From Candidatus Proruminimicrobium quisquiliarum (GTDB lineage Bacteria > Elusimicrobiota > Endomicrobiia > Endomicrobiales > Endomicrobiaceae), in the NCBI GenBank assembly GCA_018433245.1, contig JAHDRN010000009.1, positions 124,001 to 188,000 on the forward strand: a stretch of 64,000 bases of DNA. Reading direction: 5' to 3'. The notes beneath the pieces are model-generated. The model was given only the letters and a program-made list of their open reading frames with translations. It did not search any database and had not been told where the DNA came from. Below, in pieces: positions 9,780 through 24,296 of the stretch; positions within the stretch are counted from its first letter, which is position 1, and every line of letters starts with the position of its first letter. The translations under genes were made by a program, and so were the position numbers.

Positions 9780-10634
9780 TTACACTTTTTTTAATATATA
9801 CATAACACTGCCTGACGGCATTTCAAAGTCAATCCTCTTAATAAAAGGAATTAAATTTAATAATGCAAATATATAATTCAATGGAACCATCCCATATCCT
9901 TTAAGATAAGCTAGTATATAATTAACTGTCGCCGTTTTCCGTACTGCTTTTCTATCAATAACTTTTAAACCCGCCAATTCACATATTATTTCAATCGTTT
10001 TAATATTGAAATAATATAAATGCTCAAATTTATATTTCTGTCTTGTGGCTCTTACTACGTATGATACTATAGATCTGTAATCTGGAGTTACCACCATTAT
10101 GTATCCATCTTTTTTTAATAATTTGCAAGCTAATTTTAATGTTTCCACAGGGTTTTGGACGTGTTCTAAAACATCACATATTGTTATTAAATCAAAATAT
10201 GTTTTTTCAAAATTGGCCGTTTGAATTGTTCCGGTATGTATTTTATCACTGCCGAATTTATTTTCGGCGATTTTGCCCGCATATTCAGAAAGCTCAATCC
10301 CAAAAACATTGAATCCTTCATTCATGGCTACTTCCAATAAAAAACCGCTACATGTCCCGATGTCTAAAATATTACCGCCACTTTTATACTTTTTTAAACA
10401 CCTAATATATTGTAAAAAAGTTTGTTTTTTTAAATTTGATATTTGAGAATTATTAATCTCGAAATCTTTATAATATTCATTATACATTTTTCTGGTTTCA
10501 TCCAGCGTAATCTGCGGCAATAAAAATTCAACTAAACAGGCGGGGCATAAAAAAAGATTTGAATTGCCGACAACAGCAATATTTTTCATTATACCCTTGA
10601 ACGAACAAATCGGACATTGCTGTTCATGAGTCAT
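9780..10634 (-). CDS. SAM-dependent methyltransferase with N-terminal zinc ribbon
   Basis: 284 residues. An N-terminal CPIC...CPAC zinc-ribbon (C7, C10, C30, C33) is followed by a class I Rossmann methyltransferase: NILDIGTCSGFLLEVA as motif I, FGIELSEYA as motif II and DLITICDVLEHVQNP as the post-I region. This architecture is common among small-molecule and sugar C- or O-methyltransferases in polysaccharide clusters. Its start overlaps the stop of the cupin gene by 4 bases (ATGA). The substrate is unknown; a sugar nucleotide or glycan is inferred from its neighbours. Confidence 0.88.
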   Translation of the reverse strand: MTHEQQCPICSFKGIMKNIAVVGNSNLFLCPACLVEFLLPQITLDETRKMYNEYYKDFEINNSQISNLKKQTFLQYIRCLKKYKSGGNILDIGTCSGFLLEVAMNEGFNVFGIELSEYAGKIAENKFGSDKIHTGTIQTANFEKTYFDLITICDVLEHVQNPVETLKLACKLLKKDGYIMVVTPDYRSIVSYVVRATRQKYKFEHLYYFNIKTIEIICELAGLKVIDRKAVRKTATVNYILAYLKGYGMVPLNYIFALLNLIPFIKRIDFEMPSGSVMYILKKV

Positions 10635-11062
10635 TTTAATAATACCTCATCGTCTTTAATACCTTTAAATCTTATTTTATCTTCTGTTTTTAAATACGGT
10701 CCTTGCTTTATTTCTATAAGCTGCGTATCTTCAAGATATTTAAAGCCGTGGGCACCGTCTGTAAACAAAATAACGTCTCCTTTTTCTATCTCGTTGCTTA
10801 CAACATAGTTTTTATTATTGTCATAAAAATCTACCCTTACTCTTCCGCTTTTCATAATCAGTGTTTCATGCGTATAAAAAACTTCTCTTTTAATTTTATT
10901 GTGAACGTGGGCGGCGACAACCGTTCCTTTTTTATGGCAGACGCAGCCTATCTGCTGAGTTGAATTGGTGGGTGTAAAAAACTCAATCCCCTCTTTTTGT
11001 CTGTAATCAGCTCTTATAATTACGGCAAGAAGTATTTCTTTATTCTTTATGTATTCTATCAT
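10631..11062 (-). CDS. Cupin-fold protein of sugar cluster
   Basis: 143 residues with a cupin beta-barrel pattern: VVAAHVHNKIKREVFY gives a metal-site-like HxH and E; MKSGRVRVDFYD and GDVILFTDGAHGFKYLED give the second conserved motif with a histidine. Small cupins near sugar aminotransferases are often ketoisomerases, epimerases or regulators of nucleotide-sugar synthesis. No exact family is claimed. RBS GGAGA lies before the ATG, and the gene is coupled to the methyltransferase by a 4-base overlap. Confidence 0.75.
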   Translation of the reverse strand: MIEYIKNKEILLAVIIRADYRQKEGIEFFTPTNSTQQIGCVCHKKGTVVAAHVHNKIKREVFYTHETLIMKSGRVRVDFYDNNKNYVVSNEIEKGDVILFTDGAHGFKYLEDTQLIEIKQGPYLKTEDKIRFKGIKDDEVLLK

Positions 11063-11081
11063 ATCGGTCTCCGTTATTTTT

Positions 11082-12425
11082 TTACTTTTTAAAAATTCTT
11101 TCTAAAACGTACATTATAGGGCTTAATTTTAAAAAAGGCAAAAGTCTCCGTACAATTTTAAGTCTGCCGTAAAACTCGATAAGTGCTTTTTTCTGGGTTT
11201 TTATAATATCTTTTGACGTAAGCCCGTCAGGCAGATAGCGCGGCTGCGAATATGAATTTGTAAGATTATCCCTGTCGAATTCAAAATTAAGTTCTTTCCA
11301 TAACGCCGAACCCGGCAGCACTTCAAGAACATTAAACATTGCTATATCAAGATCCGAATCTTTTGCAAATTTTATTGTGTTATTCATGGTTTTTTTTGTT
11401 TCGCCGGGCAGCCCGAAAATAAAAAAACCTCCGCATATCATCCCGTATTTTTTGGCAAGCTTCACGGCTTTAAGATAATCGGCTGTAGTTTCCTGCTTGC
11501 AGACGCTTTTAAGAATTGAATCGTTTCCGCTTTCAACACCGATATTAAAATTATAGCAGCCCGCTTTTTTCAAAGAGGCCACGATTTCTTCGTCTATGCT
11601 TGTAGCCCTTAATCCTGTGGAGCATGCCCACGGAACTTTTATGTTTTCGCCTATCAAGCGGCATAATTTCAGCAAGTATTCTTTTTTAAGAGCAATGTTA
11701 TCGTCAAGAAATTTTATTTCCCTAACAGCGCAGCGGTCAATCAAATATTTCATTTCGGCTATTACGTTTTCCGGAGAACGCATTCTTACTTTGCCTTTAT
11801 AAACGTAAGGGCTGGCGCAAAAAGAACATTTATACGCACACCCTCTGCTTGCCATTACATATCCTATCGGCATTTTTTTATATATTTGACCGGACGGCCT
11901 GCTGTTATAATCTTTGGGATCTATTTTACTCCATATAAAAGGAATATTATCAAGATTTTCAACCGGCTCAGCAAATTCTATTTCCGATAATTCATCTTTC
12001 AGATTTTCAAGAGAATATACGCCTTTTATTCCTTGATTGCCAAAATTATTTAAAGCGAGCTGCAAAAGAGCGTTTTCGCCCTCGCCGCAGATTACAAAAT
12101 TTGCTTTTGAATCAACAAGAGTCTGATAAGGAAAAACCGTAGGATGCACTCCTCCGATAACAACTTTAATTCCATTTTTATTTAGAAGGTTTGAGAGCGC
12201 GCAGACCTGATTGTATTCGGCTGTCATACATCCTATACCGGCGGCGTCTGCTTTTTCTTCTTTTATAATTTTCATAACGGTTTCATTATCAAGACCGTAT
12301 TTTAAAGCATCAATTATGACTGTTTCAATGCCGTGTTTTTCAAGATAAACTGACAATACCCCAAGATTTAACGGAGGCAGCATTTGAAATGTTGATATTG
12401 AAATCCTTATTAATGCTATTTTCAT
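11082..12425 (-). CDS. B12-binding-type radical SAM protein (tandem copy 2)
   Basis: About 447 residues. The N-terminal cobalamin-binding-type domain has VIGGVHPTVFPYQTLV and ICGEGENALLQL. The radical SAM core has MASRGCAYKCSFCASP (CxxxCxxC), IKFLDDNIALKKEY and GVESGNDSILKSV. The ATG at 12425 is preferred over the in-frame TTG three bases upstream because AGAGG lies 5 bases before it. It is strongly similar to the next gene upstream throughout (for example GFFIFGLPGETK in both), so the two are a tandem duplication. The substrate is unknown; the surrounding genes suggest sugar or lipid chemistry. Confidence 0.86.
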   Translation of the reverse strand: MKIALIRISISTFQMLPPLNLGVLSVYLEKHGIETVIIDALKYGLDNETVMKIIKEEKADAAGIGCMTAEYNQVCALSNLLNKNGIKVVIGGVHPTVFPYQTLVDSKANFVICGEGENALLQLALNNFGNQGIKGVYSLENLKDELSEIEFAEPVENLDNIPFIWSKIDPKDYNSRPSGQIYKKMPIGYVMASRGCAYKCSFCASPYVYKGKVRMRSPENVIAEMKYLIDRCAVREIKFLDDNIALKKEYLLKLCRLIGENIKVPWACSTGLRATSIDEEIVASLKKAGCYNFNIGVESGNDSILKSVCKQETTADYLKAVKLAKKYGMICGGFFIFGLPGETKKTMNNTIKFAKDSDLDIAMFNVLEVLPGSALWKELNFEFDRDNLTNSYSQPRYLPDGLTSKDIIKTQKKALIEFYGRLKIVRRLLPFLKLSPIMYVLERIFKK

Positions 12426-12434
12426 CAAACCTCT

Positions 12435-13799
12435 TTATGTTTCAACTCTTTTAAAAAGCCTTTCAAGAAAATAAAAAACAGGTTCTTTTTTTATGAACTT
12501 TAAAAGTCTGAAAAATATTTTTGGCCGGAAATAAAACATTCTTAACGCTTTCCTCTGCATCTCTATAATATCTTTCCCTGTGATATTTTCATAAATTTCT
12601 CTTGGCTGAGAATATGAATTTTCTATTTCGTTTCTGTTAAATTTATAATTTAAATCTTTCCACATCTGCGAGCCCGGTAAAATATCAAGTACGTTAAACG
12701 TGGCAAGCGCAAGTTCGGACTTTACTGCAAAATCTATGCTTTTTTGCATTGTTTCTTTCGTTTCACCGGGAAGTCCGAAAATAAAAAAACCGCCGCAGAC
12801 TATATTATATTTATGAGCAAGATTAATAGCTCTGGTAAATTGTTCCGGCGTCTCCTGCTTTTTGACGACCGCCAATATATTTTTATCCGCGCTTTCTATT
12901 CCTATATTAAAATTATAACATCCCGCTTTTTTCATTGCCGAAACAATTTCTTCGTCAAGATTTGCTGCTCTGAGCCCTGAAGTACAACCCCATGCTATTT
13001 TTAGATTATTGTCTATAATTGCTCTGCAAAGACTCATTATATGTTCTTTTTTAAAGGCAAGATTATCGTCTATAAATTTTATTTCTTTAATGCCGTATTT
13101 TTCAATAAGAAGTTTAATTTCGGCAATTACGTTTTCTATGCTTCTAAATCTAACCCTTTTATTTGATAAAAACGGATTTGCGCAAAAAGTACAGGCGCAG
13201 ACGCATCCGCGGCTTGTCATCACATAACCTATCGGCATTTTTTTATATATCAAACCGGCCGGTCTTTGCCTGTACGTTTCAGGCCTTATTTTTTCCCATG
13301 CGGGGAAAGGAAGATTGTCAAGATTTTCCTCATACTCGGCAAATTGAATATTATCGGAGTTTTCTTTCAAATCTGCGAGAGAATATACTCCTTTTATTCC
13401 TTCATTGTCAAAATTATTCATAGCAAGCTGAACAAAAGCTTTTTCGCCTTCTCCGCAAATTACAAAATCGGCCTGCGAATCAACAAGAGTCTGATAAGGG
13501 AAAATAGTAGCGTGAACTCCTCCTATAATAACTTTGACTTTTAAGCCGCTGTTTTTGATAATGTTTGAAAGATCCGCAACAACGTTATATTCAGCCGTCA
13601 TACAGCTGATTCCTACGGCTTCGGGTTTTTCTTTTTTAATCACTTCAAGGATATTTTCGTTTGTTAAATTGTCTCTTAGTCCGTCTATTATTTGATTTTC
13701 TATTCCGTGTTTATCCAGAGACGATGAAATATATCCAAGTCCGAGAGGCGGTATAAGCTGTAATGTATGAACATGTACCCTTATAAGCATTATTTTCAT
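12435..13799 (-). CDS. B12-binding-type radical SAM protein (tandem copy 1)
   Basis: 454 residues, paralogous to the gene just downstream. N-terminal domain: VIIGGVHATIFPYQTLV, ICGEGEKAFVQL. Radical SAM core: MTSRGCVCACTFCANP with CxxxCxxC plus an extra cysteine (CVCACTFC), IKFIDDNLAFKKEH and GIESADKNILA. It heads a five-gene minus-strand operon (two radical SAMs, cupin, methyltransferase, aminotransferase). A TATAAT hexamer lies 8 bases upstream of the ATG, so the transcript may be leaderless; no Shine-Dalgarno is visible. The reaction is unknown. Confidence 0.86.
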   Translation of the reverse strand: MKIMLIRVHVHTLQLIPPLGLGYISSSLDKHGIENQIIDGLRDNLTNENILEVIKKEKPEAVGISCMTAEYNVVADLSNIIKNSGLKVKVIIGGVHATIFPYQTLVDSQADFVICGEGEKAFVQLAMNNFDNEGIKGVYSLADLKENSDNIQFAEYEENLDNLPFPAWEKIRPETYRQRPAGLIYKKMPIGYVMTSRGCVCACTFCANPFLSNKRVRFRSIENVIAEIKLLIEKYGIKEIKFIDDNLAFKKEHIMSLCRAIIDNNLKIAWGCTSGLRAANLDEEIVSAMKKAGCYNFNIGIESADKNILAVVKKQETPEQFTRAINLAHKYNIVCGGFFIFGLPGETKETMQKSIDFAVKSELALATFNVLDILPGSQMWKDLNYKFNRNEIENSYSQPREIYENITGKDIIEMQRKALRMFYFRPKIFFRLLKFIKKEPVFYFLERLFKRVET

Positions 13800-13892: not shown

Positions 13893-14300
13893 ATGTCAAA
13901 ATTAACAAGATTCGGCGTTTCAATAAACAAAGAGCTGTTGAAAAAATTTGATTCCCTTATACGAAAACAAAAATATCCTACGCGCTCAAAAGCGATAGAA
14001 GATTTAATTGCCGAATCCGTAGACGGTTCTCAAATATCCGACGACAAAACTTTATCGGTCGGATACATTGACATGATATACGATCATCACAAAAGACAAT
14101 TGCTGAATAAAATAACCGAAATCCAGCATGATTTCCACGATATTATTTTATCATCACAGCATGTCCATATAGATCATAACACATGCCTTGAAATAATAGT
14201 TGTAAAAGGCTCAAAATCCAAAATAGAAAAGCTCGGCCATATGCTTAAATCCACAAAAGGCGTAAAACACGGCAAATCAAGAATATTTTCAAACAATTAA
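13893..14300 (+). CDS. nikR: Nickel-responsive regulator NikR
   Basis: 135-residue ribbon-helix-helix repressor with a C-terminal ACT-like nickel domain. The N-terminus SKLTRFGVSINKELLKKFD is the RHH strand and helix. The four high-affinity nickel ligands are all present at the family spacing: H79, H90, H92 and C98 (QHVHIDHNTCLE). The start at 13893 is chosen over an in-frame upstream extension because AGAGGAAG precedes it and it aligns with NikR. The next gene, a TonB receptor, starts 84 bases later behind its own promoter, and is the likely target. Confidence 0.95.
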   Translation: MSKLTRFGVSINKELLKKFDSLIRKQKYPTRSKAIEDLIAESVDGSQISDDKTLSVGYIDMIYDHHKRQLLNKITEIQHDFHDIILSSQHVHIDHNTCLEIIVVKGSKSKIEKLGHMLKSTKGVKHGKSRIFSNN

Positions 14301-14309
14301 TTTGTTTTA

Positions 14310-14338
14310 TTGACAATCTCGGAACAATTTTATATAGT
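14310..14338 (+). promoter_or_regulatory. Sigma70-type promoter of TonB receptor gene
   Basis: TTGACA at 14310-14315, a 17-base spacer and TATAGT at 14333-14338. The site starts 9 bases after the nikR stop, so the receptor can be controlled independently of nikR. Confidence 0.8.
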
Positions 14339-14364
14339 AACACGAATTTTAATAAATGTATTAC
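14337..14364 (+). promoter_or_regulatory. Putative NikR operator GTAACAC-N14-GTATTAC
   Basis: Imperfect inverted repeat (6 of 7 positions pair) with a 14-base spacer. It overlaps the end of the -10 box and the likely transcription start. Known NikR operators are spaced inverted repeats of similar size, and nikR is the adjacent gene. The half-sites are related to, but oriented differently from, the GTGTTAC/GTAACAC arrangement that I recall for other lineages. Confidence 0.6.
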
Positions 14365-14384
14365 AAATAAAAAAGAGAAATATT

Positions 14385-16136
14385 ATGAAAAAAATTTTAA
14401 TTATGCCTGTCTTATTTTACTTTGCCGTTTCCGTTTACGGAGCTGACGTAACCCTTAGCCTTGAAAAATATGGGCAAAAACAGGATATGCTTGTCACAAA
14501 AGACGAAATAACCGCTGAACAAGCTGAAAACAAAAGTTCTGCGCAGGCTTTTAGTTTATTATCTCAAATGTCCGGAGTGCTGGTACAAACCACCGGAGAC
14601 GCCGGAAGAGCCGATCCGGTCATAAGGGGAATCGGCGACAGCTGCAGAAAAATAGCTCTTTTTATTGACGGCAAGCCTGAAAAAATGTCTTTGTTCGGAT
14701 GCGGCGTTTCGCATTCAATGCTTGCGGCAAACGTTGAAAGAATTGAAGTTATAAAAGGCCCTGATTCGGTATTATACGGTTCGGGCGCATTAGGCGGCGC
14801 TATTAATATAATAACAAAACAGCCGACAAAGCCTTTTGAGGGGATAATTGATGTTTCCGCCGGTTCTTTCAATACGCAGAATTCCGGTATTTATCTCGGC
14901 GGCGTTCAAAATAACGTTATTTACGCCGTTTCTGCAAATAAATATATTTCAGACGGACATTTGGATAACGCAAATTATAACGCAAGTGACTATTACGAAA
15001 AACTGGGCTATTGTTTTAAAGACGGCTCGGCTGTGTCAGTTGAAGCAAAACAATATTTCGGATTAAAACATGAACCCGCTCCTTATGCGGCAGGCTATTG
15101 GGAAGATTATGACAGAGGAAGCGTACAGTTAAATTACGACAAAAATTTTTCAAAATCGGATATTGCCGTTAAAATATATACCAACTACGGCGATCATCAG
15201 TTTTCGGACGGCTGGCATTCAAAGGACAGCCTGTCCGGCATAATGACAAATTACAATATTGAATTGTCAGATAACAATTTATTAAAAACCGGCGCCGAAT
15301 TCAGACAGCAGGAAGGGAAACTGTTGACCGGACCGGTATATATGGTTCATAACAGCTGGAAAACGTATGACTGGTCGGCGTTTGCTTTGGATAAACATAA
15401 TTTTACGGAAAAGCTAAGCGGCGTTGCCGGAGCAAGGTTTAATAACGATGAAATTTCCGGAAGTTTTTTTGCACCCAGAGCCGGCGTTGAATATTCATTA
15501 TCCGAAGTCTATTCAGTAAAAGCGTTGTACAGCAAAGGGTTCAGAGCACCTTACTTGAACGAACTTTATCTTGTGCCGGCAAGAAATGAAAATTTAGAAG
15601 CCGAAGAAGTAAATAATTATGAAATCGGTTTTAGCGCCGAATCTTATGATTTCAAATTCAATATGACCGGCTTTATAATGAAAGGTTCAAATATCATAGA
15701 CAACAGCGGCGGTAAATTCCAAAATACAGGCGAATATGAATTTAAAGGCTGTGAAATTGATGCAAATTATGCATTCAGTAAATATTTAAATGCAGGACTC
15801 GGATATACTTATTTTGACGCCGGCAAAAATACACAGGGCCGTCCGGTAAATAAAATAGACGCAGGTTTAAACGTTAAAGTAAATAAATTTTCGTTTAATA
15901 CAAACGCAATGTTTGTAGGCGAATACTATGCGGCAAACTACAAACAAAACAGGCTTGACGATTTTGCGGTGGTAAACGCAAGATTAAATTACGACGTAAC
16001 CGAAACCGTAAGGCTTTTTGTTGAAGGCAAAAACATAACAAACCAAAAATATTATATGTTTTTGGACAGAGACGGCGGCAGAATTATGGAAATGCCCTGC
16101 GCAACGTTTACAATCGGAACAAAAGTTAAATTTTAA
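14385..16136 (+). CDS. TonB-dependent outer-membrane receptor (probable nickel uptake)
   Basis: 583 residues: signal peptide (about 1-20, ending YGA), plug domain (LSQMSGVLVQTT, DPVIRGIGDSCRKIALFIDG, VERIEVIKGPDSVLYGSGAL, GGAINIITKQP) and a 22-strand-type barrel. It ends in TFTIGTKVKF with the terminal aromatic residue typical of outer-membrane barrels. The ATG at 14385 starts a proper signal peptide and has GAGA upstream; an earlier in-frame start at 14310 is rejected because it lies within the promoter. Position behind nikR and the operator-like repeat suggest nickel (or cobalt) chelate import. The family itself is broad, so the substrate is inferred from context. Confidence 0.92.
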   Translation: MKKILIMPVLFYFAVSVYGADVTLSLEKYGQKQDMLVTKDEITAEQAENKSSAQAFSLLSQMSGVLVQTTGDAGRADPVIRGIGDSCRKIALFIDGKPEKMSLFGCGVSHSMLAANVERIEVIKGPDSVLYGSGALGGAINIITKQPTKPFEGIIDVSAGSFNTQNSGIYLGGVQNNVIYAVSANKYISDGHLDNANYNASDYYEKLGYCFKDGSAVSVEAKQYFGLKHEPAPYAAGYWEDYDRGSVQLNYDKNFSKSDIAVKIYTNYGDHQFSDGWHSKDSLSGIMTNYNIELSDNNLLKTGAEFRQQEGKLLTGPVYMVHNSWKTYDWSAFALDKHNFTEKLSGVAGARFNNDEISGSFFAPRAGVEYSLSEVYSVKALYSKGFRAPYLNELYLVPARNENLEAEEVNNYEIGFSAESYDFKFNMTGFIMKGSNIIDNSGGKFQNTGEYEFKGCEIDANYAFSKYLNAGLGYTYFDAGKNTQGRPVNKIDAGLNVKVNKFSFNTNAMFVGEYYAANYKQNRLDDFAVVNARLNYDVTETVRLFVEGKNITNQKYYMFLDRDGGRIMEMPCATFTIGTKVKF

Positions 16137-16240: not shown

Positions 16241-16314
16241 CGGGGTGTTGCACAGATGGCTAGTGCGCTCCCTTCGGGTGGGAGAGGTCGCTGGTTCAAA
16301 TCCAGTCACCCCGA
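16241..16314 (+). tRNA. tRNA-Pro (anticodon CGG)
   Basis: Acceptor CGGGGTG pairs with CACCCCG, D-stem GCAC/GTGC, anticodon stem CTCCC/GGGAG with loop TTCGGGT (anticodon 16275-16277 CGG), T-arm loop TTCAAAT, discriminator A. The 3' CCA is not encoded. It reads proline CCG codons. Confidence 0.95.
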
Positions 16315-19730: not shown

Positions 19731-20576
19731 TTAAAAATTTATATTTTTTAAATATTTTTTGATCAGACTGTAAATTTCAATCAATGAAATGTCTTTGGCA
19801 TAAGTAAATTTCTTTTGATATTGTATCCAAAGTTTTTGAATTTGGCGGTCTTCTTCCAATTGTTTTAAAACAGTTTCATAATTTTTTATAACTTCCAAAC
19901 TGTTTCGTTTTATACAAGTTGCCGTTAATGATTTTTGGAATGTATTTTTATCAATATGTCCTATTTTTATTTTTAATAAAAGATATATATCATAAAAATC
20001 TCTGATTCTTGTATTAGCAATACCACGGGATATAACTGTTTCTATTTTTTCAGCAAGAAATGTTTCCATATTGTAAGTTAGAATATGTATTTTTTCATTA
20101 TTGAAAAAAGGTTTAAATGAAAAATCTATTTCTCTCGGAGTTATTTTATCTCCGGTTGTTATATCAACAGATAATGCTACAGACAAAACGTCATAGTCTG
20201 CTTTCATTGCAACTCTAATTCCGCCGTATTCATCATCCTTTCTGATATCTGAAAGCTCTACAATACTGTACCGTATATTATCCTTTAAATCTATTTTACA
20301 TATATCCTGAAATATCTCTTTTATTCTTTTTTGACTGACTTTTATTCCCTTAATGCTTGCATCAATATCCATAGTGGTTCTTGAATTTAAACCGGCAATA
20401 ATTGATATTAGAAAACCGCCCTTTAATATGAAATTTTTTTTATATTTAGAATGTGCTATTCTTATCAATAAACATTCCAACATGTAGGTTTGTAAAGCAA
20501 GCTGCGGAGAAATATTTTTTTCCACAGCCTTTTGTTTTATATATGCTTTAAACTGCATAACATTTGAAAAGTTCAT
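19731..20576 (-). CDS. AbiEii-type nucleotidyltransferase toxin
   Basis: 281 residues of the AbiEii/AbiGii (MNT-fold) family, toxin of type IV or abortive-infection modules. Motifs: FILKGGFLISI (KGG), RTTMDIDASIKG (the catalytic DxD), VDITTGDKITP, and the C-terminal TFLAEKIETVISRGIANTRIRDFYDIYLLL that typifies the family. It starts inside the stop of the AbiEi-like gene (4-base overlap), the usual order antitoxin then toxin. Related enzymes transfer nucleotides to tRNA or other targets; the target here is unknown. AT-rich codon use marks it as part of the accessory island. Confidence 0.9.
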   Translation of the reverse strand: MNFSNVMQFKAYIKQKAVEKNISPQLALQTYMLECLLIRIAHSKYKKNFILKGGFLISIIAGLNSRTTMDIDASIKGIKVSQKRIKEIFQDICKIDLKDNIRYSIVELSDIRKDDEYGGIRVAMKADYDVLSVALSVDITTGDKITPREIDFSFKPFFNNEKIHILTYNMETFLAEKIETVISRGIANTRIRDFYDIYLLLKIKIGHIDKNTFQKSLTATCIKRNSLEVIKNYETVLKQLEEDRQIQKLWIQYQKKFTYAKDISLIEIYSLIKKYLKNINF

Positions 20577-21166
20577 AATAATACCTGTAAATATTTTAAA
20601 ATTTTATCTTTTACTCTTAATTTTTCCGCATATTCCATAAGTAACGGAATATTTTTTTTCTTCTTTGAAATATACATTTTTATGGCAGGTATAAAAAGCT
20701 GGGCATCGTCAATATTACTGCCTCTTGCCATATCACATAACGTCTTTTCCATATTATAAACTTTTATTTTATTTTTAAAAGGCGATAATTTTTCTTCTAT
20801 GCCTAAATTATATATGTTCGGATTTGCCTGTTTTATGGTTATTAAGTTATCCTTTAATGAATTTATATGATAACCTTGCGGGAATGTCATAATATATTTA
20901 TCTAACATTCTATCGGTTAAGCCATGAATATACAAAGCGGTATCATGAGAAAATATACCTTTTCTATATCGTTGTTGAAAAATATACATTTCATCTGCTA
21001 AAGCACCTTTGGTAATGTAAACGCCTCTTGTCGCTTTTAAGATTTGATTATTATTAAGCATTAATTTCAAATATTGTCTGGCGATATTATTAGCCATTAT
21101 TTGTGAGGATGTTATTATTCCGTTATTTTCTTTTAAAAGTTTATTTATAGTTTCAATATAATTCAT
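20573..21166 (-). CDS. AbiEi-type antitoxin / transcriptional regulator
   Basis: 197 residues. An N-terminal winged helix-turn-helix (IITSSQIMANNIARQYLKLMLNN, ending GVYITK) is followed by the AbiEi C-terminal domain (FSHDTALYIHGLTDRM, KVYNMEKTLCDMARG). AbiEi proteins repress their own operon and neutralise AbiEii. RBS GGAGG lies upstream of the ATG. A consensus promoter and a perfect inverted repeat are visible 45-85 bases upstream. It overlaps the toxin gene by 4 bases. Confidence 0.88.
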   Translation of the reverse strand: MNYIETINKLLKENNGIITSSQIMANNIARQYLKLMLNNNQILKATRGVYITKGALADEMYIFQQRYRKGIFSHDTALYIHGLTDRMLDKYIMTFPQGYHINSLKDNLITIKQANPNIYNLGIEEKLSPFKNKIKVYNMEKTLCDMARGSNIDDAQLFIPAIKMYISKKKKNIPLLMEYAEKLRVKDKILKYLQVLL

Positions 21167-21210
21167 AATAACCCTCCTTTATTTTATTTTGCTTTATTTT
21201 ATTTTATTTT

Positions 21211-21241
21211 TACACTTTGAATTATAATATATTAAAGTGTA
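21211..21241. promoter_or_regulatory. Perfect inverted repeat TACACTTT-N15-AAAGTGTA, abiE operator
   Basis: Eight-base perfect arms. One arm lies within the promoter spacer and the other downstream of the -10 box of the abiE promoter, which fits autorepression by the AbiEi-like protein (known for this family). Confidence 0.7.
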
Positions 21242-21249
21242 TTTGTAAA
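21221..21249 (-). promoter_or_regulatory. Promoter of the abiE operon
   Basis: On the minus strand: TTTACA (21244-21249), 17-base spacer, consensus TATAAT (21221-21226). Confidence 0.75.
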
Positions 21250-21301
21250 GACTAAAAATTTAGGCATAAAGAAAATTTGGCAGAAGTTTAAAGCAGGAAA
21301 A

Positions 21302-21478
21302 TTACATTTTTGCCAAAGCGTTTAAAAAACTTGCTTTGGAATAATTTTTCATCCAAAAACCCGACGAAGAACATTTCTCGTTTTCACACAGTATAACCGC
21401 CCGAAAAATCAAAACAACCAAACTGAAAGCCAAAACGCATGCCGCACATGCAACCAAATACATACTGAAATTACTCAT
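21302..21478 (-). CDS. 58-residue membrane peptide, truncated copy of glycosyltransferase N-terminus (copy 2)
   Basis: Too short for usual gene calling. It has the same leader and Shine-Dalgarno as the glycosyltransferase at 18475-19662. It encodes one membrane helix, then FRAVILCENEK...SSSGFWMKNYSK and a stop. It aligns with residues 1-57 of the intact enzyme (NYSKASFLN against NYPKISLLK). It is far closer to the copy at 22487-22663 than to the intact gene, and both copies end at the same codon (AARATGTAA). Either both are remnants of a duplicated gene or both are real small membrane proteins; the shared frame and stop favour some selection. Confidence 0.5.
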   Translation of the reverse strand: MSNFSMYLVACAACVLAFSLVVLIFRAVILCENEKCSSSGFWMKNYSKASFLNALAKM

Positions 21479-21531
21479 CACAACCTCCCCTAAGGGAATT
21501 TACTGCAACTATATTGTAATAAGCAAATATT
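21473..21531 (-). repeat. Leader repeat, copy 2
   Basis: 59 bases identical to 19657-19715, here in front of the truncated 58-residue frame. Confidence 0.85.
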
Positions 21532-21629
21532 AAGTTTGAATAACAAAATTTTAAAAAAATTGTTAAGCTGGAAATACAACTTTAAAATTAAATTATAAAT
21601 CCGAAATACTTGAATGTTAAAGCATAAAT

Positions 21630-21685
21630 AAAAAAACCCCCCGACACGTCCGGCAATTTCTCGCCGGATATAAGTGTGTCGGGAG
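21630..21685 (-). terminator. Strong terminator after higBA-type operon
   Basis: Outer stem CCCGACAC/GTGTCGGG and inner stem TCCGGC/GCCGGA. On the minus strand it is followed by a T-run (TTTTTTTATTT). It lies about 30 bases downstream of the antitoxin stop codon. Confidence 0.85.
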
Positions 21686-21715
21686 ACATTTTTATTATAT
21701 CAAATTTTCTATTTT

Positions 21716-22030
21716 TTACAATTTAACAATATTTATATCAAACCCGGCACCGTTTAAAATCGTTTTAAAAGTATCTATTCTCGGATTTTTTTTCGGAGAT
21801 AAAGCCTTATAAATACCGGTTCTGTCAATATGAGCGCTGTTTGCTATTTTTGTAGCCGTTCCTCTTTCCGCTTTAATGATTAATTTTAAAGATTCTTTAA
21901 ACGCTTCAAAATCTTTGTCTTTTTTGTACTGTTTGACAACAAAATCTTTAAAACTTGAAAGAGCCTTAGGATTTTTTTTAAAATCCGCTATGACGCTGTC
22001 ATCAAAATTTGTTATTTTTGCTTTTTTCAT
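21716..22030 (-). CDS. higA: Addiction-module antidote protein (HigA-like)
   Basis: 104 residues. The C-terminal half is an XRE-type helix-turn-helix: RGTATKIANSAHIDRTGIYK followed by ALSPKKNPRIDTFKTILNGAG, typical of antidotes paired with RelE/HigB-like killers. It follows the toxin gene after 14 bases, in the toxin-first order of HigBA-type modules, and is followed by a strong terminator. It would bind and neutralise the toxin and repress the operon. The symbol is by family analogy. Confidence 0.86.
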   Translation of the reverse strand: MKKAKITNFDDSVIADFKKNPKALSSFKDFVVKQYKKDKDFEAFKESLKLIIKAERGTATKIANSAHIDRTGIYKALSPKKNPRIDTFKTILNGAGFDINIVKL

Positions 22031-22044
22031 ATTATTCCTCCATA

Positions 22045-22338
22045 CTAATCATACAAATCCATAAGTTGTCTTGCCTTTTTTATATCTTCACTTTGAGAAC
22101 TTTTATCTCCTGCATTTAACAATAAAACTATTTCTCCGTTTCTTTTAGTAAAATAAATTCTTACACCAGCCTGTATATTAAACCTTAATTCAAATAAATT
22201 GCCTTTTAAATTTTTGAAATCTCCAAAATTTCCGAGTTTTACTCTGGACATTCTGTCAATGATAATGTTTTTTAGTTCAAAATTTTTTAGTTTTTTAAAC
22301 CATTTCTCAAAAACATCCGTTTGTTTTATAACTATCAT
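22045..22338 (-). CDS. higB: Addiction-module killer protein (RelE/HigB-like mRNA interferase)
   Basis: 97 residues. FEKWFKKLKNFELKNIIIDRM, NFGDFKNLKGNLFELRF, GVRIYFTKRNGEIVLLLNAGDKSSQ and the final KKARQLM are the conserved blocks of the phage-derived Gp49/RelE-superfamily killer proteins that cleave mRNA on ribosomes. The ATG at 22338 is chosen because AGAGGAG sits 5 bases before it; an in-frame upstream ATG at 22359 lacks such a site. The promoter and operator immediately upstream overlap. Confidence 0.88.
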   Translation of the reverse strand: MIVIKQTDVFEKWFKKLKNFELKNIIIDRMSRVKLGNFGDFKNLKGNLFELRFNIQAGVRIYFTKRNGEIVLLLNAGDKSSQSEDIKKARQLMDLYD

Positions 22339-22360
22339 AAAACTCCTCTGTTCTTCCAAA

Positions 22361-22388
22361 CAAAGTGTAGATTATTTTCAACACTTTG
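22361..22388. promoter_or_regulatory. Perfect inverted repeat CAAAGTGT-N12-ACACTTTG, higBA operator
   Basis: Eight-base perfect arms that overlap both the -10 and the -35 of the higBA promoter. This is the expected position for autorepression by the antitoxin. Confidence 0.7.
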
Positions 22389-22392
22389 TCAA
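22364..22392 (-). promoter_or_regulatory. Promoter of higBA-type operon
   Basis: Minus strand: TTGACA (22387-22392), 17-base spacer, TACACT (22364-22369). Confidence 0.7.
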
Positions 22393-22420
22393 GTTGTTTA
22401 TTATTGATTATTCATAATCC

Positions 22421-22446
22421 ACATACATTAGTTATAATATGTATGT
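22421..22446. promoter_or_regulatory. Perfect inverted repeat ACATACAT-N10-ATGTATGT
   Basis: Eight-base perfect arms between the higBA promoter and the truncated glycosyltransferase copy. It could be a second operator or a hairpin ending the truncated copy's transcript. It is not explained by a known site. Confidence 0.4.
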
Positions 22447-22486
22447 AGATTGCAATTTTTGTAATTCATAATTTGGAAAGATTGTT

Positions 22487-22663
22487 TTACATTCTTGATA
22501 AAGTGTTTAAAAAACTTACTTTGGAATAATTTTTCATCCAAAAACCGGACGAAGAAGATTTTTCATTTTCACACAGTATAACCGCCCGAAAAAGAAAAAC
22601 AATCATAAGCAAAAACACCACACCACCCAACCCAACAACCGAATAAACAATAAAATTACTCAT
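22487..22663 (-). CDS. 58-residue membrane peptide, truncated copy of glycosyltransferase N-terminus (copy 3)
   Basis: It encodes a single membrane helix, then FRAVILCENEK, SSSSGFWMKNYSK and VSFLNTLSRM-stop. It is nearly the same as the frame at 21302-21478 and similar to the N-terminus of the glycosyltransferase at 18475-19662. GGGAG precedes the ATG at 22663; an upstream in-frame ATG at 22675 is less likely. DNA similarity to copy 2 stops at the stop codon. It may be a gene remnant or a real small protein. Confidence 0.5.
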   Translation of the reverse strand: MSNFIVYSVVGLGGVVFLLMIVFLFRAVILCENEKSSSSGFWMKNYSKVSFLNTLSRM

Positions 22664-22717
22664 CACAACTCCCATAGAATATACTCCCCTACAGGCACAT
22701 TGTAATAAACAGATATT
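22658..22717 (-). repeat. Leader repeat, copy 3 (diverged)
   Basis: It shares ACTCATCACAAC at the start codon side and ATTGTAATAA...ATATT at the far side with copies 1 and 2. The middle is diverged. Confidence 0.7.
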
Positions 22718-22832
22718 AATTTTTAATAATCAAACCCTTAACAATTTATTAAGTTAAAAACTCCCTTCTTAAAAATAATTAAAATTTAATGTATAATAGT
22801 CTCGCACCACCATATAAATCATAAGGATTGTT

Positions 22833-24296
22833 ATGGAACTGGTATTAGAAAAAAACAAAGAAAAGACTATAGAAGATATAAAAGAACTTTTGAAAAAAGA
22901 TTCAAATTATCATCCATTTAGTGATGATTTACTGAATCTGAAAGATATAGCCGAAACCATATCCGATATTATTAAAAATACAAAAGACCCTTTCGTTTAC
23001 AGTATCAATTCTCCATACGGCACAGGCAAAACATTTTTTCTAAAAAGATTACATTGTTTACTTGAGCAAAAAGATTGTTTAGTTGTTTCATACAATGCTT
23101 GGGAATCAGATTTCTATTCTGATCCGCTATCTGCCTTAATAGGCGAATTATCAGATCAAATTGATGCAAAAAAATTTAAAAAAACAGAACAAGAAGTGGC
23201 TGTCTTAACAAATGTATCAATCGGATTTTCTTTTGGATTAACAGGAAATTTAAATTTTGGCAATAAACAAAATATATCAGATACATATCAAAAACATAAA
23301 TATAGGAAAGAAAAATTTATAGAAACATTAAAAAAATTTACAGAAGAATTACCATCACCTTTAGTTTTTATAATTGATGAATTAGACCGTTGCAGACCTG
23401 ATTATGCAATTCAAACTTTAGAAATCATAAAGCATTTTTTTAACATTCCGAATATAACATTTGTTATCGGTGTCGACAGAAAACAAATAGAAAGCACAGT
23501 AAGAGTATTATACGGTTCAAATATAGATACTTGTTGCGACGAATATTTAAGAAAATTCATAGATCAAGATTTTTATCTTCCAAAACCATCATCTACAAAA
23601 TATATAGAAACTTTATGCCGTAAACATTTAGCTTCCGTTATTCTTCATTTTTGTGGGCATGATAATTTTTTCAGTGTTTATAAACAAAATTTATTCTCTC
23701 CTATTTTTGAGCAAAAACGCAAACTTGATTTTTTTAGGCATGCATTATCTAAGGGGAAATATGATACAGATTCTGAACCTATTAAAGAACAATTTATAAA
23801 TACTACTATAGATCTTATTACGGCATATGTTGATGCTTTATCAGAATATTTTGTTTTTAGTTTAAGAAAACAAGAACAATTTGTTATTTCGTTAAAGATA
23901 TTATTTTCTTTATTATCAGAAGATAAAGATATATTATTGCCAGAATTAGCCTGTTTATTAACAGCAATTAAATTACATGAACCCTCTATGTTAGATAAAC
24001 CCAAAACTAAGATATTTGAAATACTTTTATATAAAACCCCATATAATTTAAATTATCCTGAAATTTCTAAATTGAATTTGAAATCCGAGGGATCTATAAA
24101 AAGATTTAAACTTGATAAAATTGAAAAAGAAGCGATTCATATAATGTTAAATTTAGATGCAATACAATTCTGGAGCAGATGCCTTTATGAAATTCAATTT
24201 TCTAAGGATCACGATAAATTTAGGAACTCGCTATATGATCTCGCAAATAAATATTTACAATTAACTAAACAATTAAGTCTGTTAGAAAATCAATAA
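22833..24296 (+). CDS. KAP-family P-loop NTPase
   Basis: 487 residues. Walker A SPYGTGKTFF (61-70), the KAP-type AW motif in SYNAWESDFY, and the Walker B signature FIIDELDRCRPDYAIQTLE (179-197) followed by FVIGVDRKQIE. The usual membrane segments of many KAP NTPases between Walker A and B are missing, so this looks cytoplasmic. KAP NTPases are widespread on mobile elements and are recurrent candidates in phage-defence loci (family knowledge). RBS AAGGA and a TATAAT at 22792-22797 lie upstream. It converges on the HEPN/repeat gene with a 13-base gap. Codon use is AT-rich. Confidence 0.85.
   Translation: MELVLEKNKEKTIEDIKELLKKDSNYHPFSDDLLNLKDIAETISDIIKNTKDPFVYSINSPYGTGKTFFLKRLHCLLEQKDCLVVSYNAWESDFYSDPLSALIGELSDQIDAKKFKKTEQEVAVLTNVSIGFSFGLTGNLNFGNKQNISDTYQKHKYRKEKFIETLKKFTEELPSPLVFIIDELDRCRPDYAIQTLEIIKHFFNIPNITFVIGVDRKQIESTVRVLYGSNIDTCCDEYLRKFIDQDFYLPKPSSTKYIETLCRKHLASVILHFCGHDNFFSVYKQNLFSPIFEQKRKLDFFRHALSKGKYDTDSEPIKEQFINTTIDLITAYVDALSEYFVFSLRKQEQFVISLKILFSLLSEDKDILLPELACLLTAIKLHEPSMLDKPKTKIFEILLYKTPYNLNYPEISKLNLKSEGSIKRFKLDKIEKEAIHIMLNLDAIQFWSRCLYEIQFSKDHDKFRNSLYDLANKYLQLTKQLSLLENQ

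Follow-up and report, generated by a model that had tools for sequence, protein, structure and literature searches.

The window analyzed here, 64,000 nucleotides of the genome of Candidatus Proruminimicrobium quisquiliarum (Elusimicrobiota, Endomicrobiaceae), carries a nikR gene directly followed by a gene for a TonB-dependent outer-membrane receptor. An earlier note on this DNA proposed that NikR represses the receptor gene through a repeat overlapping its promoter, and it suggested that the inverted order of the half-sites may reflect a divergent recognition code. The locus raises two questions: does the repeat serve as a NikR operator for a nickel receptor, and does its arrangement call for a new mode of DNA recognition?

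The nikR gene (13893..14300, plus strand, with its ATG at 13893 and its stop at 14300) encodes a nickel-responsive ribbon-helix-helix repressor of 135 amino acids. Two Pfam domains exceed their gathering scores (NikR_C, E 5e-29; RHH_1, 6e-06), and the NCBIfam cut-offs are exceeded for NF003381 (147.7 against 105), NF002169, and NF002815; the protein falls below those for TIGR02793 (107.8 against 175.45) and NF001884 (105.9 against 119). It can be aligned over almost its full length with the solved NikR chains 2bj1, 1q5v, 2wvd, and 2ca9, and its nickel ligands (His79, His90, His92, and Cys98) line up with those of the solved chains. The four ligands reported in the earlier note are thus all present, and they are widely kept in the phylum: across the 81 of 84 nikR loci that were aligned, they occur in 77, 76, 78, and 80 sequences, respectively. 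DNA binding by this protein is predicted to depend on nickel. The recognition strand, R6-F-G8-V-S10 (RFGVS), whose residues presumably contact bases, is conserved as well (R in 80/81, G in 73/81, and S in 77/81 aligned sequences), and in the alignment it corresponds to R-V-T-I-T in 1q5v, which we take to be E. coli NikR. The 84 loci comprise the window, its three closest relatives (L031 to L033), and 80 matches with an E value of at most 5.5e-23; the tree of NikR proteins was built without L050, L112, L117, and L124, which read short. Only one nikR match exists in the 1.94-Mb genome, which is rated 100% complete, and the nearest nikR records in the named collection belong to Endomicrobiaceae MAGs and Candidatus Praeruminimicrobium purgamenti. 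Upstream of nikR, the other strand carries a methyltransferase gene and, in tandem, two genes for B12-binding radical SAM proteins (9780-13799), and a same-genus locus (L031) shows three radical SAM-like frames, assigned by eye.

The receptor gene (14385..16136, plus strand) begins with an ATG 84 nt past the nikR stop and encodes 583 amino acids with Plug and beta-barrel domains; ExbD is also present in the genome. Its promoter consists of a -35 element, TTGACA (14310..14315, plus strand), and a -10 element, TATAGT (14333..14338, plus strand), separated by 17 nt. It agrees at 11 of 12 positions and is the best of six promoter-like hits between 13780 and 14420, a stretch that yields 3.7 hits on average when shuffled; in the window, its exact string is present a single time, against an average expectation of 0.01. 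Transcription is presumed to start near 14345, given the position of the -10 element. The predicted operator lies on the plus strand and is made up of box 1, GTAACAC (14337..14343), a 14-nt spacer that begins GAAT (14344..14357), and box 2, GTATTAC (14358..14364), with the two boxes 21 bp apart from center to center. Box 1 begins within the -10 element and shares two bases with it; the repeat is exact, and promoter and repeat overlap as had been claimed. The window receptor, with its plug and barrel, has over its promoter two 7-bp boxes of the GTGTTAC/GTAACAC type at the N13/14 gap, of which box 2 is one letter off GTGTTAC, in the reverse of the convergent order GTGTTAC...GTAACAC. Directly after the receptor gene lies a tRNA gene (16241-16314), and farther downstream (19731-24296) are an AbiEii/AbiEi-like pair, a Gp49/HI1420-like toxin-antitoxin pair, and a KAP NTPase.

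The window has a single occurrence of the pattern GTRNYAC-N14-GTRNYAC, whereas 100 shuffles yield none, and the whole 1.94-Mb genome contains a GTRNYAC pair once at N14 and never at N13. No place in this genome other than the receptor promoter fits the strict pattern. When up to two mismatches to a tighter pattern are allowed, 10 other genome sites appear against 21 for a reversed-pattern control, which is not above chance, and the 12 kb around hypA contain two lone boxes and no pair. A wider regulon in this genome was rejected on the grounds of the single strict site and the chance-level looser matches. Autoregulation of nikR in the window was likewise rejected, since no site within two mismatches lies upstream of the gene; 31 other nikR loci have one.

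We consider it very likely that 14337-14364 is a NikR operator through which nickel-loaded NikR represses the gene of a receptor whose cargo is nickel or a nickel chelate, probably in the service of a group 4 [NiFe]-hydrogenase. With sufficient cytoplasmic nickel, the NikR tetramer would be nickel loaded, and one ribbon-helix-helix dimer would occupy each GTRNYAC box on the same face of the DNA, two helical turns (21 bp) apart. The bound protein would lie over the receptor promoter's -10 element and start, and the gene would be blocked. Scarce nickel would free the promoter, and the TonB receptor would then be made and carry its cargo, nickel or chelated nickel, through the outer membrane, probably to feed the hydrogenase. 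Nickel repression would fit the position of the site over the -10 element and the presumed start, and it would also fit the joint occurrence of nikR with [NiFe]-hydrogenase and HypA described below. The genes, ligands, promoter, and operator, and the conservation, uniqueness, and spacing of the latter, are read from sequence. From these we infer binding, its nickel dependence, repression, and the substrate.

The gene content points to a probable use for the nickel. The genome carries a group-4-type hydrogenase run, so assigned from neighboring membrane subunits and motifs, whose large subunit (L162:8640-9875) keeps both CxxC pairs and has NuoD as its best-scoring model, below the NuoD cut-off. 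It also carries HypA followed by a HypF-like frame, identified by eye. Among 36 genomes of the family, a [NiFe]-hydrogenase match and HypA above its cut-off coincide in the same 13, and nikR is found in 11 of these 13 versus 2 of the 23 others (Fisher p 8.7e-6, ignoring kinship). The exceptions are G008 (78% complete) and G015 (87% complete), with nikR and no [NiFe]-hydrogenase match, and G010 and G019, with a hydrogenase and no nikR match. Neither CbiM nor NicO was found in the window's own genome. Across 60 relatives plus this genome, CbiM was not found in the eight genomes that have this receptor type directly after nikR (G000, G001, G011, G020, G040, G041, G042, and G047), and NicO occurs among them only in G041, downstream in the receptor run and together with DUF1007. 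CbiM is present in G058, where weakly similar receptors follow two of its nikR genes, and in G013 it heads the receptor operon.

Lack of conservation of the motif upstream of nikR-linked receptors had been named as the observation that would count against the proposal; that comparison shows the motif to be conserved at nearly every locus read. Across the window and the three nikR-receptor loci nearest to it (L031 to L033), TTGACA, TAT[AC]GT (TATAGT or TATCGT), and GTAACACGAA align, and box 2 reads GTATTAC, GTATACA, GTGTTAC, and GTGTTAT, respectively. In G001, a relative from the same genus, box 2 is a poor match (GTATACA, three mismatches by hand count), and G042 has the same variant. Farther afield, among loci where a receptor-like gene follows nikR, a strict pair comes after nikR in G041, G047, and L099, the last with one other gene in between, and a near-pair with a weaker box 2 does so in G040, in G042, and at two loci of G058. 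No box pair is present at L123 (in G140), where a receptor-like gene lies 277 nt past a divergent nikR. In the sister clade of Endomicrobiaceae, nikR is not flanked by a pair of this kind, and the receptor sits at the far end of a run converging on nikR or elsewhere.

Comparable sites also occur away from nikR. Just before the receptor, G029 has GTGTCAC-N13-GTAATAT (one mismatch) and G026 has ATGTTAC-N13-GTGCTAT (two mismatches). GTGTTAC-N13-GTAATAT (one mismatch) occurs about 300 nt before the receptor in G030 and, in G013, before a cbiM-PDGLE-receptor-ZnuA-ABC-ABC3-methyltransferase run; in both genomes nikR is on a different contig from the site. Within promoter stretches of unequal length (80-440 nt), a like site with zero to three mismatches precedes the receptor or the cbiM-receptor operon in all eight nikR-bearing Endomicrobiaceae with a readable promoter, and in G029, G026, G030, and G013 it is not beside nikR. 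These eight come from 13 nikR-bearing members of the 36 family genomes; outside the count are G015 and four genomes (G021, G025, G032, and G008) whose contig ends before the receptor promoter or whose promoter was not reached. Among six nikR-less genomes (one receptor and five cbiM promoters), G010, G003, G007, and G017 have no candidate under four mismatches; G019 and G006 have a two-mismatch candidate, the same mismatch number as in nikR-bearing G026, and that of G019 looks like a decayed copy. In the nikR-less Endomicrobiaceae loci L191, L195, L196, L197, and L198, cbiM is followed by larB- and larC-like genes, and in some by a larE-like gene, a nickel-pincer cofactor set; the larC-like gene of L195 contains Ni_insertion (PF01969), and the other lar names were given by eye. 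Only L195 (G006) among them has a two-mismatch NikR-like candidate before cbiM.

The receptor might instead import cobalamin or a siderophore, with NikR as a chance neighbor or acting on cobalamin or cobalt uptake. The two B12-binding radical SAM genes just upstream would suit such a cargo, as would the receptor's two top NCBIfam models, TonB-siderophore and TonB-B12, and its top-scoring solved structure, BtuB. The scores, however, are far under the cut-offs (119.2 against 599.7 for TonB-B12, the BtuB model TIGR01779, 85.7 against 836 for PRK10641, and 139.1 against 223.5 for TonB-siderophore), and the receptor reaches no cut-off among the 25 NCBIfam models listed. A cobalamin riboswitch was rejected, as none reaches the Rfam gathering score within the window. 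Because the site over the promoter is also kept along with nikR, we regard this alternative as unlikely. The exact site, its uniqueness, and its conservation support the reading that the neighboring receptor gene has an operator of the NikR type over its promoter.

We then come to the arrangement of the boxes. In the 250 nt that flank nikR on each side, the 84 loci contain 42 GTRNYAC pairs within 60 bp, of which 39 are spaced at 20 bp (gap N13) and 3 at 21 bp, the window having N14; many of the loci belong to one family (f18), and the sites are not independent. A control of 3,360 random 250-nt pieces from the same loci, at least 600 nt away and mostly coding DNA, gave no pairs. Restricting the count to noncoding DNA leaves 26 pairs, all at 20 or 21 bp; the ORF mask hid the window's own site, and the unmasked count is 42. 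By hand count, a strict pair is present in 38 of the 84 loci and absent in 46. Sites before nikR all begin GTGnTAC (31/31), and in 23 of the 31 this box has its classical partner. After nikR, the 11 strict sites spread over 9 of 16 possible box-type combinations, including everted, direct, and palindromic boxes, and 10 of them depart from the convergent order. GAA or GAT follows box 1 in 14 of 17 aligned sites after nikR, whichever way the box points. In G041, where one nikR was found, a convergent site precedes nikR and a nonconvergent site precedes the receptor.

Such variety does not call for a new code, since a ribbon-helix-helix dimer has two-fold symmetry of its own. The nine box combinations after nikR, the recurrent GAA/GAT, and the unchanged recognition strand suggest that the half-site is best taken as a pseudo-palindrome with a center that can drift. 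A changed, lineage-specific code behind the everted order could draw on the four closest loci, which share box 1 GTAACAC and gap N14, and on the uniform GTGnTAC of all 31 sites before nikR. We find this very improbable: the strand RFGVS is the same as in relatives with classical sites, the 11 sites after nikR are scattered over many box types, the one NikR found in G041 faces two arrangements, and Rodionov et al. (2004; PMC545781) already describe the reversed order in Desulfotalea psychrophila and D. vulgaris. The divergent code suggested earlier is rejected for these reasons. The inverted half-site order was correctly observed, being opposite to the published convergent GTGTTAC-N13/14-GTAACAC; it is real, and it is neither new nor a changed code. 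That the repeat is a chance inverted repeat with nothing bound is barely credible, for despite the AT-rich intergenic DNA in which it lies, it has no counterpart in 100 shuffles and no second strict match in 1.94 Mb, it is conserved, and all 42 pairs stand at 20 to 21 bp.

If the receptor is a nickel gate under NikR control, its inner-membrane partner may be a ZnuABC-like transporter. In four order- or class-level relatives (G040, G041, G042, and G047; nikR-receptor runs L173:3085-9983, L174:896-6313, L175:5427-10274, and L176:4163-9676), genes for a ZnuA-like binding protein, an ATPase, and an ABC-3 permease come after the receptor gene in the same orientation, and in G041, G042, and G047 a methyltransferase-like gene follows as well; these assignments were Pfam-tested in G041, and the ABC-3 permease was also matched in the other three. 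The ZnuA-like proteins of the four runs have CPGH where a Pro-His motif is usual, and 14 such binding proteins, from nikR-bearing and nikR-less genomes, have Cys where two ordinary ZnuA-type proteins have Pro-His. The window's own genome has a ZnuA-ABC trio unlinked to the receptor (L179:4492-6826); its genes have no NikR-type site, and an orphan ABC partner under NikR was rejected here. In G011, a weak pair, GTAACAC-N14-GTATTTA (L180:3007-3034), precedes the run holding the equivalent unlinked genes, and this pair was not seen in G020. A like transporter is present in G009 and G018, which have no nikR or hydrogenase match, and this argues against a role for nickel only. The Cys-motif transporter is a candidate partner of the receptor, its link to nickel being a lead. 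We tentatively envisage, as one possible broader picture, an undescribed Elusimicrobiota route for nickel or nickel chelates made up of the TonB receptor, the Cys-motif ZnuA-like protein, a ZnuBC-like pair, and a SAM methyltransferase. Its NikR half-sites would be orientation-free pseudo-palindromes drifting among inverted, direct, and everted forms, and in the window's genus only the outer-membrane gate would be left in the regulon, the ABC partner being unlinked to it.

Judged from sequence, both the operator and its link to the receptor are sound, and the mechanism would be the ordinary one, in which NikR represses nickel uptake, here in a further phylum. A literature search, with most subscription papers outside it, found no paper on NikR in Elusimicrobiota and none on a NikR-linked ZnuABC-like transporter. 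The analysis provides a predicted NikR target set for a little-studied phylum and points to the ZnuABC-like transporter as a candidate nickel importer. The natural sites, with many box orientations at one fixed spacing, also offer a test of half-site direction for a ribbon-helix-helix tetramer.

The closest parallel in letters and spacing is with the deltaproteobacterial operators, which take the form GTGTTAC-[N13/14]-GTAACAC or the reversed GTAACAC-[N13/14]-GTGTTAC (PMC545781), the latter in D. psychrophila and at nikK of D. vulgaris. The window site follows the reversed order and differs in its box 2 (GTATTAC), its phylum, and its target, a TonB receptor; the deltaproteobacterial operators serve nikMQO-type transporters, nikK, an Fe-only hydrogenase, and one unnamed gene pair. 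The E. coli NikR that acts at nikABCDE shares the family, the ligands, and a two-box operator, whereas its half-site letters differ (GTATGA-N16-TCATAC; PMC7055735) and its target is an inner-membrane ABC transporter. In Helicobacter pylori, NikR has a broad regulon, in contrast to the one strict site in the window genome, and its two hemi-operators lie two helix turns apart, with a center spacing of 20 nt versus 21 here (PMC5385501). TAACA and TATTA of the window boxes fit the H. pylori TRWYA half-site, and the TRWYA dyad has the same pseudo-palindromic property (PMC5385501). The predicted NikR control of TonB-dependent nickel uptake resembles that of the H. pylori TonB receptors FecA3 and FrpB4 (PMC5385501, PMC7055735, PMC11247825).
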